64,000 nucleotides of DNA. Origin: Defluviimonas sp. SAOS-178_SWC (GTDB lineage: Bacteria; Pseudomonadota; Alphaproteobacteria; Rhodobacterales; Rhodobacteraceae). Of this stretch, positions 32,481 through 45,942 are shown in pieces. Position numbers and translations under genes: made by a program. The DNA lies in contig NZ_CP156081.1 in assembly GCF_039830135.1 (NCBI RefSeq), positions 2,528,001 through 2,592,000 on the forward strand. The letters are read 5' to 3'. Numbering within the stretch: the first letter of the stretch is position 1; each line of letters opens with the position of its first letter. Under the pieces are notes generated by a model. That model was not told the DNA's origin, ran no database searches, and saw only the letters and a list, made by a program, of their open reading frames with translations.

Positions 32481-34127
32481 ATGACCAAGCATTTCGCGCC
32501 GGAGATCCATCCGGCTGCCATTCACTATGCCGACGAAGTCCGCGCGGGCACGTTGAGCCGCCGGGAGTTCCTGACCCGGGCCTCCGCGCTTGGCGTGAGC
32601 AGCGCGGCGGCTTACGGCCTCTTGGGCCTCAAGGCCCCGGCGCTGGCGCAGGACACCCCGAAACCGGGCGGCACGCTGCGCATGCAGATGGAAACCAAGG
32701 CGCTCAAGGACCCGCGCACTTTCGACTGGTCCCAGATCGCCGACTTCGCGCGGGGCTGGCTGGAATACCTTGTCGAATACAATGCTGACGGGACGTTCCG
32801 CGGCATGTTGCTGGAAAGCTGGGAAGTCAACGACGACGCCACCGAATACACGCTGAAGGTCCGTCAGGGCGTGAAGTGGAACAACGGTGACGACTTCACC
32901 GCCGAGGACGTGGCCCGCAACATCACGGGGTGGTGCGACGCCGAGGTCGAGGGCAACTCGATGGTCGCCCGCATGGGCGGTCTCGCCGACGAGACGACCA
33001 AGAAGGCCCGGGACGGGGCCATCACGGTGGTGGACACCCATACCGTCAAGCTGTCCCTGCCCGCGCCCGACATCACCATCGTCGCCGGCATGGCGGATTA
33101 TCCCGCGGCGATCGTGCATTCGAGCTATGCGGGCGGCGATCCGACCGACAATCCGATCGGTACCGGGCCGTACATGCCCGAGACCAACGAGGTCGGCGTC
33201 AAGCAGGTTCTGGTCAAGAATGCCGACCAGGTCTGGTGGGGCACCGATGTCTATGGGGGCCCCTACCTCGACCGGATCGAGTATATCGACCTCGGCACCG
33301 ATCCCTCGGCTTATCTTGCCGCGGCAGAAGCCGAAGAAATCGACGTCACCTACCAGACCACCGGCGACTTCGTCGAGATCTTCGACGGGCTGGGCTGGAC
33401 CAAGTCCGAGGCGGTGACTTCCGCCACGATCTGCGTCCGCTTCAACCAACTGGCCGACCTCTACAAGGACGTCAAGGTGCGCAAGGGCCTGCAGATGATG
33501 GTCGACAATGCCGTCATCCTGGAACTCGGCTACGCCTCGCTCGGGACGGTGGCGGAAGATCATCACGTCTGCCCGATCCACCCGGAATATGCCGAACTTC
33601 CGCCGCTCGCGGTCGACCCGGCCGGCGGCAAGGCGCTGATCGACGAAGCGGGGCACGCGGATACCGAATTCGAGCTGATCTCGATCGACGACGACTGGCA
33701 GGCGGCGACCTGTGACGCCGTGGCCGCCCAGCTTCGGGACGGCGGTGTGAATATCAAGCGCACGATCCTGCCCGGCTCGACCTTCTGGAACGACTGGACG
33801 AAGTACCCGTTCTCGGCGACCGAATGGAACATGCGCCCGCTTGGCGTGCAGGTTCTGGCCCTCGCCTACAAGAGCGGCGGTGCCTGGAACGAAACGGCGT
33901 TCAGCAATGCCGAGTTCGACTCGCTTCTAGCCGAAGCCATGTCGATTGCCGACGCCGACAAGCGGCGCGAGGTCATGGCCAAGATCGAGAAGATCATGCA
34001 GGACGAGGGTGTGATCATCCAGCCCTACTGGCGGTCGCTCTATCGTCACTTCCGCGAGGGCGTGAAGGGCTGCGACATGCATCCGACCTTCGAACACCAC
34101 CATTACAAGTGGTGGCTGGAAAGCTGA
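32481..34127 (+). CDS. ABC importer family 5 solute-binding protein, Tat-exported
   Basis: The periplasmic binding protein of a dipeptide/oligopeptide/nickel-type importer. 548 residues with a twin-arginine signal ([12 protein letters not shown] at about 24-35, cleavage after APALAQ), then [54 protein letters not shown] in pieces, and the NPIGTGPYM motif of the family. A Tat signal means the protein is exported already folded, which is usual for this subgroup. First gene of a four-gene operon with two permeases and a double ATPase. AGGGAGAAAACT precedes the ATG. Substrate not predictable. Confidence 0.9.
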
Positions 34128-39495: not shown

Positions 39496-39540
39496 GGCCG
39501 CATTACGCGCGCGGAAACCTAACGGGTGCCTAATGGCGGC

Positions 39541-39708
39541 ATGAGACAGAGCCACACCCCGGTTCCTCACACCGTCCACGCCGTTCACGCCCCCGCCGCA
39601 CGGCTGACCTTGCCGGCCGCGCTGCCTGTCGCGATGGGTCTTGCTTCGGCCTTTCTCGCTGTGCTGGCGGGTGTCAGCTTCGCCATGACGATGATCCGGC
39701 CCGGCTGA
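39541..39708 (+). CDS. Possible 55-residue membrane protein
   Basis: Short frame encoding a His/Pro-rich N-terminus (MRQSHTPVPHTVHAVHAP) and one strong hydrophobic helix (about 28-52, LPVAMGLASAFLAVLAGVSFAM). No good ribosome-binding site is visible, but the frame fills the space between the divergent FemAB-like gene and the convergent aglK, ending 3 nt before it. Small hydrophobic proteins of this shape are common; coding status uncertain. Confidence 0.4.
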   Translation: MRQSHTPVPHTVHAVHAPAARLTLPAALPVAMGLASAFLAVLAGVSFAMTMIRPG

Positions 39709-39711
39709 CCC

Positions 39712-40800
39712 TCATCGGTAAAGAAGCGAACGGCCGACATGGAACAGGTGGACCCTGGCGGGGTCCACCCGCAGCCCGACCGACGCGTGCCGCAGTCCGG
39801 GATGAATGCCGGGAAGCTTGGCGATGACCGGCGCCGTGCCGTTCCGGGCCTTGAAATACAGAAGCGTCACCTCGCCAAGCGCCTCGGTGATCTCGACCTC
39901 GCCGCGCCAGGCCACCGCCGCATCATCCGCCGGCACGAAATGCTCCGGCCGGATCCCGACCCGGACCTTGAGCCCGCGGTCGCCAGCTTCCGTAGGGACC
40001 GTCGAGGTCACCGTCCCGCCAGAATCCAGCCGCACCGTTGTCTCCGCCCCGGTCCCGGTGATCTCGCCGTCGAGAAGGTTCATCGCCGGGGATCCGATGA
40101 ACTGCGCGACGAACTCGGTCTCGGGGCGTTCGTAGAGATCGAGGGGCGTTCCAACCTGCGCGATGCCGCCCCCCGAAAGAACCACGATGCGGGAGGCGAG
40201 TGTCATCGCCTCCACCTGGTCATGCGTGACGTAGATCATCGTCGCCCCCGGCATGTTCTCCTTCAACTGCGCGATCTCGATCCGGGTCGCGACACGCAAG
40301 GCGGCGTCGAGGTTGGAAAGCGGCTCGTCGAAAAGATAGACCCTGGGGTCGCGCACGATCGCCCGGCCGATGGCGACACGCTGGCGCTGGCCGCCGGACC
40401 GCGCCTTTGGCAGCCGGTCGAGATAGGGGGTCAGTTGCAGGATTTCGGCCGCCCTGCCGACGGCGGCCGCGATCTCCACCCGGCTTTTCCTCGCGATCTT
40501 CAGCGCGAAAGCCATGTTGTCGCGCACCGTCATATGGGGATAGAGCGCATAGGACTGGAACACCATCGCGATGCCGCGCTGGGCCGCGGGAACCGCGTTC
40601 GTCACCACGCCGTCGATTTCCAGCGTGCCACGCGTGATCGGTTCCAGCCCCGCGATCATGCGCAGGAGCGTCGACTTTCCGCAGCCCGACGGGCCGACGA
40701 ACACGATCAGTTCGCCCTGCCGGATATCGAGATTGATATCCCTGAGGACCTCGACATTGGCGTAGGATCTGCCAATGCCTGTCAGTTTCAGCCCGGCCAC
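39712..40800 (-). CDS. aglK: Alpha-glucoside ABC importer ATPase AglK (variant signature motif)
   Basis: MalK/UgpC-type ATPase, 362 residues. Walker A GPSGCGKST (36-44), Q-loop Gln82, Walker B VYLFDEP (154-160), and the C-terminal OB/TOBE regulatory domain (VGIRPEHF). The ABC signature reads RSGGQ (134-138) where the family has LSGGQ; the codon at 40399-40401 is CGG, one base from CTG. The start is a GTG at 40800 after GAGGAGGCGTCG, directly behind the aglA-remnant stop. An in-frame extension upstream runs through that remnant and is not coding. With aglE-F-G it would import alpha-glucosides such as trehalose, maltose or sucrose. Confidence 0.85.
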   Translation of the reverse strand: MAGLKLTGIGRSYANVEVLRDINLDIRQGELIVFVGPSGCGKSTLLRMIAGLEPITRGTLEIDGVVTNAVPAAQRGIAMVFQSYALYPHMTVRDNMAFALKIARKSRVEIAAAVGRAAEILQLTPYLDRLPKARSGGQRQRVAIGRAIVRDPRVYLFDEPLSNLDAALRVATRIEIAQLKENMPGATMIYVTHDQVEAMTLASRIVVLSGGGIAQVGTPLDLYERPETEFVAQFIGSPAMNLLDGEITGTGAETTVRLDSGGTVTSTVPTEAGDRGLKVRVGIRPEHFVPADDAAVAWRGEVEITEALGEVTLLYFKARNGTAPVIAKLPGIHPGLRHASVGLRVDPARVHLFHVGRSLLYR

Positions 40801-40810
40801 CGACGCCTCC

Positions 40811-40945
40811 TCACGCCGCGCGCCGCAGCAGGTTGCACTGCCACGGCCCAAACGCCAACACCCCGCCCTCCCGCGGCGCGGCGCCGCGCCACCAGTCCCG
40901 GTCCCCGTCAAGCTGCGCCGCTGCCGGCAGGTTCGTCGCGGTCAC
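40811..40945 (-). pseudogene. aglA: aglA remnant: alpha-glucosidase with an internal in-frame deletion
   Basis: A 44-codon frame sits exactly where aglA lies in agl operons. It starts GTG one nt after the aglG stop, reads MTATNLPAAA and then DRDWWRGA, which is the characteristic N-terminal motif of GH13 alpha-glucosidases (normally WWRGAVIYQIYPRSF). It then jumps to EGGVLAFGPWQCNLLRRAA and stop, which looks like the C-terminal strand of the same enzyme. About 500 codons are missing. The junction lies in GC-palindromic DNA (GCGCGGCGCCGCGCC), suitable for slippage or recombination. The reading frame is kept into the stop, so coupling to aglK would be maintained. Confidence 0.75.
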
Positions 40946-40946
40946 G

Positions 40947-42092
40947 TCAGCCCCCTTTCACGGATCCAGCGAGTATGCCCCGCACGAGGAATTTCTGCAT
41001 CGAGAAGAACACCAGAAGCGGCACCGCGACGGAGACGAAGGCCGAAGCCGCTAGAATCTCCCACTCGCCGCCCCGCGAGCCCATGAGATTCACCAGCCGC
41101 CCGGTCAGAACCAGCTTCTCGTCCTGCGGGCCGAGAAAGACCAGCGCCACGAGAAGGTCGTTCCAGGTCCAGAGGAACTGGAAGATCGCGAAGCTCGCGA
41201 GCGCCGGAAAGGAAAGCGGCAGGACGATCCGGGTGAAGATCTGGACGTCGCTCGCCCCGTCGAGACGGGCGGACTCCATCACCTCGCGCGGAAGCCCGGC
41301 CATGTAGTTGCGCAAGAGATAGATGGCGAGCGGCAGTCCGAACCCGGTATGGGCAAGCCAGATGCCGAGATAGCTTTTCGGTTCGAAACCAAAGGCTTGC
41401 CCGGCAGAGTTGTAGATCTTGAGGAGCGGGATCAGCGAGATCTGCAAGGGCACGACCTGAAGCCCGACCACCGCCGCGATCAGGAGGGAACGCCCCGGAA
41501 ACGGCATCCAGGCCAGCGCATAGGCGGCGAATGCGGCGACAAGGATCGGGATCACGGTCGCGGGCACGGCGACGGTCATCGAGTTCAGGAAGGACCGGCC
41601 GAGACCGGCCGCCGTCAGGACGCCCCGGTAATTCTCCGCCGTGAAGCGCGGCGGCAGATCGGCGGTGTAGAAGATACGCTGCCCGCGCGCCCCGGCGGAA
41701 CTTTGCGGGCCCGAGAGTTCGAACCTGCCGTCTTCCGCGACGCTGAGCGTCACGCCGTCCTTCAGTTCCGCCGTCGCCCCCGGCGCGAAGGCGGCCGGGT
41801 CGCGCGAGGAGAAGCCGAAGGCCGACACGCGGCCGGCCCCGCCCTCCAGCACGTTGCCGGTCAGGACGTGGCGGCCCGCCACCAATGGTCCCCCGTCACC
41901 CGGCGGCGCGCGGAAGACGCGGTTCTGCGACGAGGTCGACAGCGCCGTCCACCAGCCCGAGACCGAGATCTGGTCCTTATCCCGGAAAGACGAGACGAGA
42001 AGCCCGGCCGTCGGCAGCGTCCAGAGCAGGACGAGAATGGCGACCGAAAGCTGCACGGCCCAGGCGAGCGGGGATCGCGGCCGCGACGGCAT
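40947..42092 (-). CDS. aglG: Alpha-glucoside ABC permease AglG
   Basis: 381-residue MalG-type permease. Six hydrophobic helices; the first (about 12-35) is followed by a large periplasmic loop of about 110 residues (SGWWTALSTSSQNRVFRAPPGD onward in parts), a feature of AglG. The EAA motif is GLPREVMESARLDGASDVQIF. The ATG at 42092 overlaps the aglF stop by one base. It is intact, in contrast to the aglA remnant directly downstream. Confidence 0.87.
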   Translation of the reverse strand: MPSRPRSPLAWAVQLSVAILVLLWTLPTAGLLVSSFRDKDQISVSGWWTALSTSSQNRVFRAPPGDGGPLVAGRHVLTGNVLEGGAGRVSAFGFSSRDPAAFAPGATAELKDGVTLSVAEDGRFELSGPQSSAGARGQRIFYTADLPPRFTAENYRGVLTAAGLGRSFLNSMTVAVPATVIPILVAAFAAYALAWMPFPGRSLLIAAVVGLQVVPLQISLIPLLKIYNSAGQAFGFEPKSYLGIWLAHTGFGLPLAIYLLRNYMAGLPREVMESARLDGASDVQIFTRIVLPLSFPALASFAIFQFLWTWNDLLVALVFLGPQDEKLVLTGRLVNLMGSRGGEWEILAASAFVSVAVPLLVFFSMQKFLVRGILAGSVKGG

Positions 42093-43102
42093 CACCGATC
42101 CCCCGTCTCGGACCGCGCCCGCAGGATGTTCCAGATCATGATCGGCACGACGAGCACCATGATCACGACGGCGATGGCCGCCCCGCGCCCGAAATCGCCG
42201 CCACCCCGAAACATCCAGTCGAACATGAGGTTCGCGAGGACCTGGCTGTTCCACTGGCCGTTCGTCATGGCCAGCACGATGTCGAAGACCTTGAGGACGG
42301 TGATGGTGATGGTGGTCCAGACGACCGCGATCGTGCCCCAGATCTGCGGCACCATAATCCGCAGGAAGATCTGAAGACCCGAGGCGCCGTCGAGGATGGC
42401 CGCCTCGATTGTTTCTTCCGGAATCCCCCTCAACGCGGCCGAGAGGATGACCATCGCGAATCCGGTTTGGATCCAGATGAGGATCACCATCAAGAAGACG
42501 TTGTTCCAGAACGGCAGGGCGATCCACGCCTGCGGTTCACCGCCGAGGGAGACGACAATCGCATTGAGGAGGCCGATCTGATCGGAGCCTTCGCCCCGGT
42601 AATCGTAGACGAATTTCCAGATCACCGCGGCGCCGACGAAGGAGATCGCCATCGGCATGAAGATCAGCGATCTGGCGATGTTGCCCCAGGCGATCCGGTC
42701 TGTAAGGGCGGCGGCGACAAGGCCGAGGAAGTTCGACGCCGCCGGCACCACGAGAAGCCAGAGAAGGTTGTTCACCATCGCTTCCCGGACCCCCGGATCG
42801 CCCAGCAGCCAGCGGTAGTTGGCGAGCCCGACGAAGTCCTGCCCGCTCCGGTCGTGAACGCTGAGCCAGATCGACGCGAAAACCGGGTAGACGAGGTAGA
42901 GCCCGAGCGCCAGCAAGGCGGGCCCGAGGAAGAGCCAGGGCCGGATCAGCGCCGCACGGGCGATGTTGCGCGACGCCACCGCCCTGTCGGCGGCCCGGAG
43001 CGGGAAGATCCGGTCAAGACACCAGTTGGAGCCCCAGAAATAGAGACCCGCCCCGGCAATCCCGCAGACGATGGTGAAAAGCGCGGCCCAGAGCTGTTCC
43101 AT
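42092..43102 (-). CDS. aglF: Alpha-glucoside ABC permease AglF
   Basis: 336-residue MalF-type permease with about eight helices including two N-terminal ones (LWAALFTIVCGIAGAGLYFWG and PWLFLGPALLALGLYLVYP). The EAA motif is GIPEETIEAAILDGASGLQIF. GGAGGGGGTATGG before the start is a good ribosome-binding site. It follows aglE after a 24-nt gap and overlaps aglG by one base. Confidence 0.87.
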   Translation of the reverse strand: MEQLWAALFTIVCGIAGAGLYFWGSNWCLDRIFPLRAADRAVASRNIARAALIRPWLFLGPALLALGLYLVYPVFASIWLSVHDRSGQDFVGLANYRWLLGDPGVREAMVNNLLWLLVVPAASNFLGLVAAALTDRIAWGNIARSLIFMPMAISFVGAAVIWKFVYDYRGEGSDQIGLLNAIVVSLGGEPQAWIALPFWNNVFLMVILIWIQTGFAMVILSAALRGIPEETIEAAILDGASGLQIFLRIMVPQIWGTIAVVWTTITITVLKVFDIVLAMTNGQWNSQVLANLMFDWMFRGGGDFGRGAAIAVVIMVLVVPIMIWNILRARSETGDR

Positions 43103-43126
43103 ACCCCCTCCCCCCGGCGGGCCGCC

Positions 43127-44482
43127 TTACTTGATCGCGTCCCACTCGGCCTGGATCGCCGCCGCGACGGCGCCGGTCTCCTTGCCGCCGGCGTAGTCGA
43201 CCATGCCGGTCCAGAAGGCACCGGCGCCGATCTTGCCCGGCATCAGGTCCGATCCGTCGAAGCGGAAGGTCGTGGCGCCGAGGAGGATCTCGCCCTGCTT
43301 CCTCAGCGCGGAATTGGCATAGGCGTCGACATTGACCGCCTTGAAGGGGGTGAGAAAGCTCGATTGCGCCATCCAGACCTCGTGCGCGATGGGCGTTTTC
43401 AGAAACTCGATGAACGCCCGCGCGGCCTCTCCGTCCCGGGTGATCATGGCGAGCGTGCCGGCGCCAAGGACGGGTTTCCCGAGGTCCTTGCCCGCATAGG
43501 CCGGAAAGTAGAAGAAATCGGCGTCGCGCCCCAGTTTCGTTCCTTCCGGGAAGAAGGACGGGATGAACGACGCCTGGTGATGCATGTAGCATTTCGGCGG
43601 CGAGGCGAAGAGCCCCTTGGCGCTGTCACGGAAATCGGTCGTCGCGACCGCGGCGGCTCCGCCATCAACGAAGGCGTCGTTGCGGGCGAACCAGCCGAAT
43701 TCGTCGATCGCGCCGGTGATGGCGAGGTCGGTGAAGGGCAGATCATTGCCGATCCACCTGTCGTAGACATCCGGCGCGGCCGTCCGAAGCAACAGATCCT
43801 CGACCCAGTCAGTCGCGGGCCAGCCGGTCGCGCCACCCGAGCCGAGACCGATACACCACGGCGTTCCGCCATCGGCGGTGATCCGTTCGGTCAACGCCTT
43901 CAGGTCCTCCATCGTCCCCGGGACCTCGTAGCCCGCATCCTCGAAATTCTCGGGCACGTACCAGACGAGCGATTTCACGTCGATCTTGTAGGGGAACGCG
44001 TAGAGCGCCGAGGTTCCGTCGGCGCCCTTGTAGATACCGAGGCCGGCCCAGCTGTCGCCCGCAGCGTAGTTCCCGCGAATCCATGCCTCGGTCTCGTCGC
44101 CGAGCGGCGCCAGCAACCCTTTCGCGGCGAGGTCGCCGATCAGCCCCGGTTGCGGCAGGATCGCGATGTCGGGCGGGGAGCCGGCCTGGGTGTCGATGAC
44201 GATCTGCTGTTCGTAGTTCTCCGACGAGGAGTAGATCACCGTGATACCGGTGGCGGCGGAGAAATACGCAAGGACACTTTCCGCGAGCACCTGATCCTCG
44301 CCCCGCCACGGTCCGAAGATCGACAGCGACTGACCGTCAAGGTTGTATTTATTGGCATAGGAATCGAAGCTCGCCCAGTCGAAACGCGCATCCTCGCCCG
44401 GTTCGAATTTCAGCTCCTGCGCTGCCGCGCCGCCGGCAAGAAGCGCCAGGGCGGCGGCTCCGACATGAAGCGTACTCGTCAT
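43127..44482 (-). CDS. aglE: Alpha-glucoside-binding periplasmic protein AglE
   Basis: 451-residue family 1 solute-binding protein. Sec signal peptide at 1-21 (cleavage after GGAAA), then SLSIFGPWRGEDQVLAESVLAYF, GSPPDIAILPQPGL, and the LPGKIGAGAFWTGMVDYAGG ending, all typical of AglE/ThuE-like proteins. ATG at 44482 preceded by GATGTGGGGATATC. First gene of aglE-F-G-(aglA remnant)-K. The LacI-type regulator gene aglR, often upstream, is not present here; a LacI-type operator-like site is (44539-44554). Confidence 0.87.
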   Translation of the reverse strand: MTSTLHVGAAALALLAGGAAAQELKFEPGEDARFDWASFDSYANKYNLDGQSLSIFGPWRGEDQVLAESVLAYFSAATGITVIYSSSENYEQQIVIDTQAGSPPDIAILPQPGLIGDLAAKGLLAPLGDETEAWIRGNYAAGDSWAGLGIYKGADGTSALYAFPYKIDVKSLVWYVPENFEDAGYEVPGTMEDLKALTERITADGGTPWCIGLGSGGATGWPATDWVEDLLLRTAAPDVYDRWIGNDLPFTDLAITGAIDEFGWFARNDAFVDGGAAAVATTDFRDSAKGLFASPPKCYMHHQASFIPSFFPEGTKLGRDADFFYFPAYAGKDLGKPVLGAGTLAMITRDGEAARAFIEFLKTPIAHEVWMAQSSFLTPFKAVNVDAYANSALRKQGEILLGATTFRFDGSDLMPGKIGAGAFWTGMVDYAGGKETGAVAAAIQAEWDAIK

Positions 44483-44976
44483 GATATCCCCACATCGTTC
44501 GTTGGCGTTCCGACACTCATTATCCTTTTTTATAATGATTACAAAGCGTTTTAAAACATGATCCGCAGGCCCGCGTCGGGGCGGCTCAACGTCGTCTGGA
44601 CGATCTTCCGCCACGCGCCGGATTGCACGCCTGAACCAGGCGGGCGGTGAGTATCGAGGCGGCCGACGGCCTTGCGTATACTCAACCGAAGGACGATCTC
44701 TTGGACGTGACCGCGCATCATGGCGCGGCATTTCCGGACGACCGTCTCATGGTCCGTTGGCGGCCATGTGGCTGACCTACTTCGGCGTCTTCGGGATGTG
44801 GGCGACGCCCGCGCCGCGTCACCCCCACCACGCCACGCACGGGATCGCGGCATCGGCCGCCCAAAACCCGTCTTACGTCCCGATATCGGCGCAGCGCGCT
44901 TGATGCGGACCCCGAAAGCATCCTATCACGCCATTGAGGGCCCCACGACCAAAGCCCCTGCAAAGCGAAGATGCGG
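44483..44976. other. Intergenic stretch upstream of aglE and glk
   Basis: A 494-nt gap between divergently transcribed aglE and glk. The aglE side has an A/T-rich island (44515-44560) with the operator-like sequences listed separately. The remaining 400 nt are GC-rich. Open frames on both strands translate into Arg-rich, low-complexity products with no recognisable motif; I find no trace of aglR or of a mobile element. Confidence 0.5.
44530..44554 (-). promoter_or_regulatory. aglE promoter island with LacI-type operator-like site
   Basis: Two overlapping symmetrical elements. Site one, TTATAATGATTACAA (44530-44544), pairs 6 of 7 positions. Site two, TTACAAAGCGTTTTAA (44539-44554), has the central CG of LacI-family operators and pairs 6 of 8. 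They lie about 50-70 nt upstream of aglE in the only A/T-rich patch of the gap. Control by a LacI protein such as AglR is inferred. Confidence 0.4.
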
Positions 44977-45942
44977 ATGCCTGAGACCCTTTCGCTCGTG
45001 GCCGATATCGGCGGCACCAACACCCGCGTCGCGCTGGCGCGGGGGGATGCCGTCGACCGCGCGACGATCCGGCGCTTCGCCAATGCCGATTTCCCCGGTC
45101 TCGGCCCCGTCCTCGTCCGATACCGGGCCGAGTCGGGCAATCCGGCCTGTGCTGGCGCCTGCGTCGCCGTTGCCGGGCCGGTCGATCACGGCGTTGCACG
45201 CCTCACCAATCTCGACTGGACCATCGACCGGGCTGCAGTCGGGGCAGCGACCGGGGCAGAGCGGGTCGCGGTCCTGAACGACCTTCAGGCCCAGGGCCAT
45301 GCGCTCGGCCACATCGCGGCCGACTGCCTGCGGCCGCTGATCGTGGCCGAGGGTTCCGGCCGGACCGACGGGCCGCAACTCGTCATCGGCGTCGGCACCG
45401 GCTTCAACGCCGCCGCCGTCCACGAGGCGCCCGGCGGGCGGATCGTCACCGCCTCCGAAAGCGGCCATGCCAGCCTGCCGGTCCGGACCGAGGCCGATCT
45501 GCGGCTGATGCGGTCCGTCGAGACGGCACACGGGTTCGCCGGGGTGGAGGATGTGCTTTCGGGTCGCGGGCTCGAACGGCTCCACGCCTGGGCGGCGAGC
45601 GAGGCCGGTCGCGACGAACTTCTCGGGGCCTCCGCGATCATGGCGGCGATCGCCGAGGGCACGGACCCGGTCGCGACCGAAACGGCGCGCGCCTTCCTCC
45701 GCCTCCTTGGCACCGTCGCCGGCGATCTGGCGCTGACCCACCTGCCCTTCGGCGGCATCTACCTGATCGGCGGCGTCGCCCGTGCCTTCACCGATCACTT
45801 CGACCGCTTCGATTTCGCCGCCGCCTTCCGCGACAAGGGGCGGTTCTCGACCTTCATGCGGGAATTCCCGGTGTCGATCATCGAGGACGATTACGCCGCC
45901 CTCGAAGGCTGCGCCCGCTACCTGAGCGCCGCCGCTATCTAG
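44977..45942 (+). CDS. glk: Glucokinase
   Basis: ATP-dependent glucose phosphorylation. 321 residues of the GlkA type: phosphate-1 loop LVADIGGTNTRVALA, VAVAGPVDHG, NDLQAQGHAL, VIGVGTGFNAA, the SESGHASLP motif with sugar-binding Glu/His, and IYLIGGVARAF. An ATG two codons earlier (44971) is possible; 44977 has better spacing from GCGAAG. It is divergent from the agl operon and convergent on pgi with a short gap, consistent with a glucose/alpha-glucoside utilisation region. Confidence 0.94.
   Translation: MPETLSLVADIGGTNTRVALARGDAVDRATIRRFANADFPGLGPVLVRYRAESGNPACAGACVAVAGPVDHGVARLTNLDWTIDRAAVGAATGAERVAVLNDLQAQGHALGHIAADCLRPLIVAEGSGRTDGPQLVIGVGTGFNAAAVHEAPGGRIVTASESGHASLPVRTEADLRLMRSVETAHGFAGVEDVLSGRGLERLHAWAASEAGRDELLGASAIMAAIAEGTDPVATETARAFLRLLGTVAGDLALTHLPFGGIYLIGGVARAFTDHFDRFDFAAAFRDKGRFSTFMREFPVSIIEDDYAALEGCARYLSAAAI

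Follow-up and report, generated by a model that had tools for sequence, protein, structure and literature searches.

A 44-codon in-frame remnant of aglA between aglG and aglK in the agl operon of Defluviimonas sp. SAOS-178_SWC

We report that the agl operon of Defluviimonas sp. SAOS-178_SWC carries, in place of the GH13 alpha-glucosidase gene aglA, an in-frame remnant of 44 codons set between full-length importer genes. This is ordinary gene loss caught at an unusually clean stage. Our preferred explanation, to which gene content and sequence comparison lead us to assign a probability of just under 60%, is that the importer still works and that a paralogous enzyme has taken over hydrolysis after the in-frame loss of the operon's own aglA. 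An operon of the order aglE-F-G-A-K, encoding an alpha-glucoside ABC importer and a GH13 alpha-glucosidase, would have lost the body of aglA in one deletion, leaving a dead stub whose translation may still carry ribosomes from aglG to the start of aglK. The AglEFGK importer would continue to work, the imported alpha-glucoside would be split by a paralogue encoded downstream of glgX, and the released glucose would enter metabolism via the neighboring glucokinase. We propose that the loss of the operon gene was tolerated because an enzyme remains elsewhere.

The window, meaning the whole stretch of 64,000 nucleotides that was analyzed, carries on its minus strand, in this order, aglE (43127..44482, solute-binding protein, PF01547), aglF (42092..43102, permease, PF00528), aglG (40947..42092, permease, PF00528), the 44-codon frame (40811..40945) and aglK (39712..40800, MalK-type ATPase, PF00005, PF17912 and PF08402). 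The importer genes are thus all present, in order, intact and full length with their expected Pfam domains, and no full aglA lies between aglG and aglK. The short frame runs from a GTG start to a TGA stop and encodes the 44 residues MTATNLPAAAQLDGDRDWWRGAAPREGGVLAFGPWQCNLLRRAA. It begins one base past the aglG stop codon and ends 10 bases ahead of the aglK GTG (40800), which is preceded by a GGAGG lying between the remnant stop and aglK. A scan of 39500-45100 gave no promoter-like sites and one terminator-like site, against 3.3 expected, and the predicted RNA folding of the stub is no better than that of shuffled sequences (z 0.68).

The slot between aglG and aglK is occupied in relatives by aglA, a GH13 alpha-glucosidase gene encoding, for example, 546 residues in G004 and 549 in G012; a full copy was found at this site in nine genomes of the genus and in two of other genera of the family. 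The best solved relatives of the G012 protein include 3wy1, a GH13 alpha-glucosidase, and 6aav, an alpha-glucosyltransferase. In the closest relative of the window genome (G019, whose AglG is 89% identical), aglA is split by contig ends, with the N-terminus on C42 and the C-terminus followed by aglK on C270.

Alignment of the 44 residues with AglA of these relatives, which the first-pass annotation had proposed as a check, gives a split match to both ends of the enzyme. Residues 1-22 correspond to the N-terminus through WWRGA and the last 22 to the C-terminus, where GPWQCNLL in the remnant faces SPWQCCLL in G019, so that about 22 N-terminal and about 22 C-terminal codons are joined at a junction uncertain by a few codons. 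In comparisons with 11 full AglA proteins, 2000 shuffles apiece, no shuffle reached the score of the N-terminal half with any of them; the score of the C-terminal half was reached by none with 10 of the 11, and by 9 of 2000 with L040. From the DWW motif to the end, the remnant has 28 residues and the full enzymes have 530-536, indicating that some 502-508 codons were lost. These 28 residues retain no part of the GH13 catalytic domain: in profile searches the remnant had no Pfam or NCBIfam match, PF00128 included. Both ends of the parent gene are recognizable in the expected place and order and the catalytic domain is missing, as in a pseudogene of aglA. The annotation's view of a 44-codon in-frame remnant of aglA, missing about 500 codons with frame and stop retained, is therefore upheld, and the spacing to aglK is retained as well.

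With both gene ends in place and the frame kept, comparison with relatives supports the view, also put forward at first pass, that the body of aglA was removed by a single in-frame internal deletion, here of about 1.5 kb. The junction flanks align with relatives (on the left, 98 of 120 bases are identical to G019; on the right, 54 of 72 aligned bases are identical to G012). Repeats at the breakpoints were read from 11 relatives: in G010, an 8-base stretch coding for Gly-Ala is common to both breakpoint zones in the same frame, and the other ten relatives have 4-8 bases in common between the two zones, whether in frame or not. The cause is probably short GC-rich direct repeats that code for Gly-Ala near both gene ends, rather than the GC palindrome through which the deletion had been suggested to run. 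A perfect 16-base palindrome does lie at the junction (40875..40890), but it is one of four such palindromes in the window, a number within chance expectation: 40 single-base shuffles of the window gave a mean of 2.0, and at least four in 7 of the 40. Because a deletion between in-frame repeats preserves the frame anyway, and one in three random deletions would do the same, an intact frame argues only weakly for selection. The deletion could also be absent from the cell and reflect an assembly error, given that it rests on a single assembly from one genome of the species. We regard this as hardly credible, as the genome is in two contigs, the breakpoint-zone repeats of the 11 relatives do not exceed 8 bases and are too short for an assembly collapse, and no second aglA copy with which to collapse was found in the genome.

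Loss of aglA from this position has occurred repeatedly. In the genus, aglG is present (E ≤ 1e-100) in 14 of the 22 genomes, and 4 of these 14, the window genome included, lack an intact operon aglA: ten carry aglA (one of them over two contigs), one has the remnant, and three (G011, G015 and G021) have neither aglA nor aglK at the site. AglK had no match at E ≤ 1e-100 anywhere in those three genomes, and no aglA relic was found behind their aglG (best E 0.44). Their aglE-F-G genes (L045, L043 and L041, respectively) adjoin a dpp-type operon and sit on very long branches. Beyond the genus, 8 of 80 named loci have aglG followed 36-126 bases later by aglK with no AglA match (E ≤ 1e-20) in the stretch. 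For a survey of the family, 296 genomes were drawn, of which 151 have aglG (E ≤ 1e-105), and the downstream side was read at 145 loci; omitted from the reading were G186 (contig edge), G304 and G308, and the loci of G000, G020, G022 and G023 were already covered. Of the 145 loci, 134 carry aglA, with a match over 450 residues or more, and the other 11 lack any AglA match; no partial match occurred. The two surveys overlap, the gap sequence of L187 (G153) being that of the named locus L096. A quickly built tree of 96 AglF+AglG rows, in which several branches are very long, requires a minimum of seven changes to account for the aglA-less state; this count does not separate gain from loss.

In the 8 named and 11 family loci without aglA, neither tblastn nor inspection of the gaps revealed an aglA relic, and among the aglA-less loci read, recognizable ends of the gene are kept solely in the window. 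Other contents of the slot were seen. In G188, a GH4 gene (L329, 79-1395) occupies the position between aglG and aglK, a non-orthologous replacement of aglA, and in G049 (L229) a 539-base gap separates the two genes with nothing recognizable inside. Two Rhizobium genomes (L081 and L087) have a common short frame right after the aglG stop that overlaps the aglK start; we did not adopt it as an aglA relic, for which the case is not clear, or as a conserved peptide, since the small number of differences between the two genomes alter residues.

A candidate replacement enzyme is present in the window genome, as had been suggested at first pass, in the form of one intact, predicted AglA-like GH13 protein. 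PF00128 has four matches in the genome, all in a single cluster that we name glgP-glgB-glgC-glgA-glgX-GH13 from reading the sequences. The last gene of this series (G000:C2:3506627-3508231), about 0.94 Mb from the agl operon, encodes 534 residues that are 54-59% identical to G012 AglA, the value varying with the aligned stretch, and is the genome's only other AglA-like match (E ≤ 1e-10). Its PF00128 domain is full (profile positions 1-445 of 446, E 4.6e-117), and its closest solved relatives are 6aav, aligned over residues 4-499, and 3wy1. The top NCBIfam name for both AglA and this paralogue, "beta-galactosidase BglA," fell below its cut-off and was not adopted. A genome search for GH31, GH4 and GH15, the alpha-glucoside-splitting families covered besides GH13, gave no match. 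Orthologues of the paralogue at 73-84% identity are encoded in G004, G008, G011, G020 and, split into two pieces, G009; in G004 and G011 the gene immediately follows glgX.

Across the 15 aglA-less genomes of the genus (4) and family (11) surveys, to which this check was confined, 10 have an AglA-like match elsewhere (E ≤ 1e-10), the window genome among them and the weakest match being 49% identical (G049). This co-occurrence leads us to favor a transfer of hydrolysis to a paralogue with the importer kept. The remaining five (G015, G021, G084, G278 and G188) have no such match at that threshold, which counts against a takeover by a paralogue, as do the faster change of the transporter genes and the disappearance of aglR described below. 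Among the ten genomes of the genus that carry operon aglA, four (G004, G008, G009 and G020) also have the same paralogue as the window genome, so that redundancy is permissive rather than diagnostic. Two of the aglA-less genomes with a match, G043 (L331) and G170 (L332), encode at other loci AglA-like proteins that are 65% and 63% identical to AglA, respectively, and that by their similarity may be relocated aglA genes.

Upstream of aglE the operon differs from those of several relatives. The 488-base interval (44483..44970) that separates aglE from glk, a glucokinase gene on the plus strand (44971..45942, PF02685) adjoining the operon, lacks both the LacI-type regulator gene aglR and the GH1 gene present there in those relatives. 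The first-pass description of an otherwise complete agl operon thus holds for aglE, aglF, aglG and aglK but not for aglR and the upstream GH1 gene, both of which are missing. A genome-wide search for aglR gave nothing at E ≤ 1e-40, and no convincing relic was found upstream of aglE in the window (best E 0.23; G012 has a weak match, E 0.001); the GH1 search covered this locus. The four loci of the genus with open reading frames listed (L035, L037, L039 and L047) all have aglR on the divergent side of aglE, and three of them have the GH1 gene ahead of glk, with Pfam confirmation in relatives for one GH1 and one aglR. Over the genus, aglR is present in 8 of the 14 agl-bearing genomes (E ≤ 1e-40); the six without it are all four that lack an intact operon aglA plus G010 and G012, in which aglA is present. 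A LacI-type aglR beside the agl operon is therefore usual without being strictly defining.

The main rival to a takeover by the paralogue is that the operon is decaying: aglR and aglA are gone, the transporter genes are drifting, and the open stub marks an early stage. The absence of aglR from all four genus genomes without operon aglA is in keeping with this, as are the three genomes on very long branches that also lack aglK at the site, and so is the rate of amino-acid change. At positions where G010 and G017 agree, AglE, AglF, AglG and AglK together have 68 residues changed solely in the window lineage and 26 changed solely in its sister G012, and 29 other window genes have 171 against 212 (odds ratio 3.2, Fisher p 1.7e-6). 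These 29 are drawn from 38 non-agl open reading frames after nine had been set aside for shortness, overlap, low identity, an incomplete match or a likely origin as shadow frames. A wider control of 37 non-agl frames above 60% identity shows the same trend (67 versus 27 for agl, 196 versus 278 for the others); in that count the agl frames extended too far and aglF did not stand as a frame of its own. When three outgroups and two sisters are used, agl changes number 57 in the window, 15 in G019 and 16 in G012, and glk, pgi and pgl counted in the same way give 10 in the window and 15 in G012. Synonymous changes are also raised, however (96 versus 51 for agl, 484 versus 414 for the others, p 0.012), and a comparison of the two kinds of change within agl shows no significant difference between their ratios (p 0.26), so the excess reflects in part a locally deeper or faster divergence and at most in part relaxed constraint. 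The solute-binding protein of a neighboring peptide-type ABC operon outside agl (32481-34127) also changed faster here, with 33 unique residues against 17. Further against decay, all four transporter genes remain open over their full length, and pairwise omega in comparisons with the window is low, at 0.05-0.07, for aglE and aglG, the two genes for which window pairs gave values (those of aglF and aglK gave none). On balance, we consider decay doubtful.

The importer may instead have changed role, taking up an alpha-glucoside (trehalose, sucrose or glucosylglycerol) to serve as a compatible solute instead of a nutrient once its hydrolase was gone. In favor of this, the genome has no OtsA match, and none of its four PF00128 matches, which all fall in the glycogen cluster, is TreS- or TreYZ-like; one aglA-less record is named Rhizobium halophilum, a name that suggests a saline habitat. 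Yet OtsA is missing from all 14 agl-bearing genomes of the genus, with or without aglA, the habitat is a guess from a name, and the intact paralogue, as a predicted alpha-glucosidase, should itself cleave a solute of this kind. We find this reading quite improbable. Selection may also have kept the stub as a translational bridge, allowing the enzyme to be dropped without uncoupling aglK translation from aglG; we think this unlikely. Were it true, the bridge would have left the importer free to work with a paralogous enzyme or in the uptake of a solute.

Taken together, the window appears to hold a clean intermediate of a recurrent loss, seen in Rhodobacteraceae-type and Rhizobiales loci, by which operons drop their own hydrolase and keep the importer. 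It cautions that sugar use is not safely predicted from lists of operon genes, and the glgX-linked paralogue offers a direct test case for the replacement of an operon enzyme by one encoded elsewhere. Our literature search, which left most subscription papers outside its scope, found no report of aglA remnants, of this deletion or of recurrent aglA loss.

Known systems place the locus between two arrangements. One source (PMC3518184) refers to AglEFGAK as a system reported to transport trehalose and lists AglEFGK for trehalose, maltose and sucrose. The Sinorhizobium meliloti aglEFGAK operon (Willis and Walker, 1999, as cited there) resembles the window in its order E-F-G-A-K, an alpha-glucoside transporter with a family-13 alpha-glucosidase gene inside, but in the window this gene is a 44-codon stub. 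3wy1 and 6aav, among the best solved relatives of both G012 AglA and the glgX-linked paralogue, differ from the remnant in the same respect, as it is without any catalytic domain. In R. etli, according to PMC3518184, aglA (treC2) lies upstream of aglEFGK and not inside it, so that the run of transporter genes is, as in the window, without aglA. There, however, the enzyme gene stands beside the operon, whereas the AglA-like gene of the window genome follows glgX far away on the genome, and a remnant persists in the old aglA slot.
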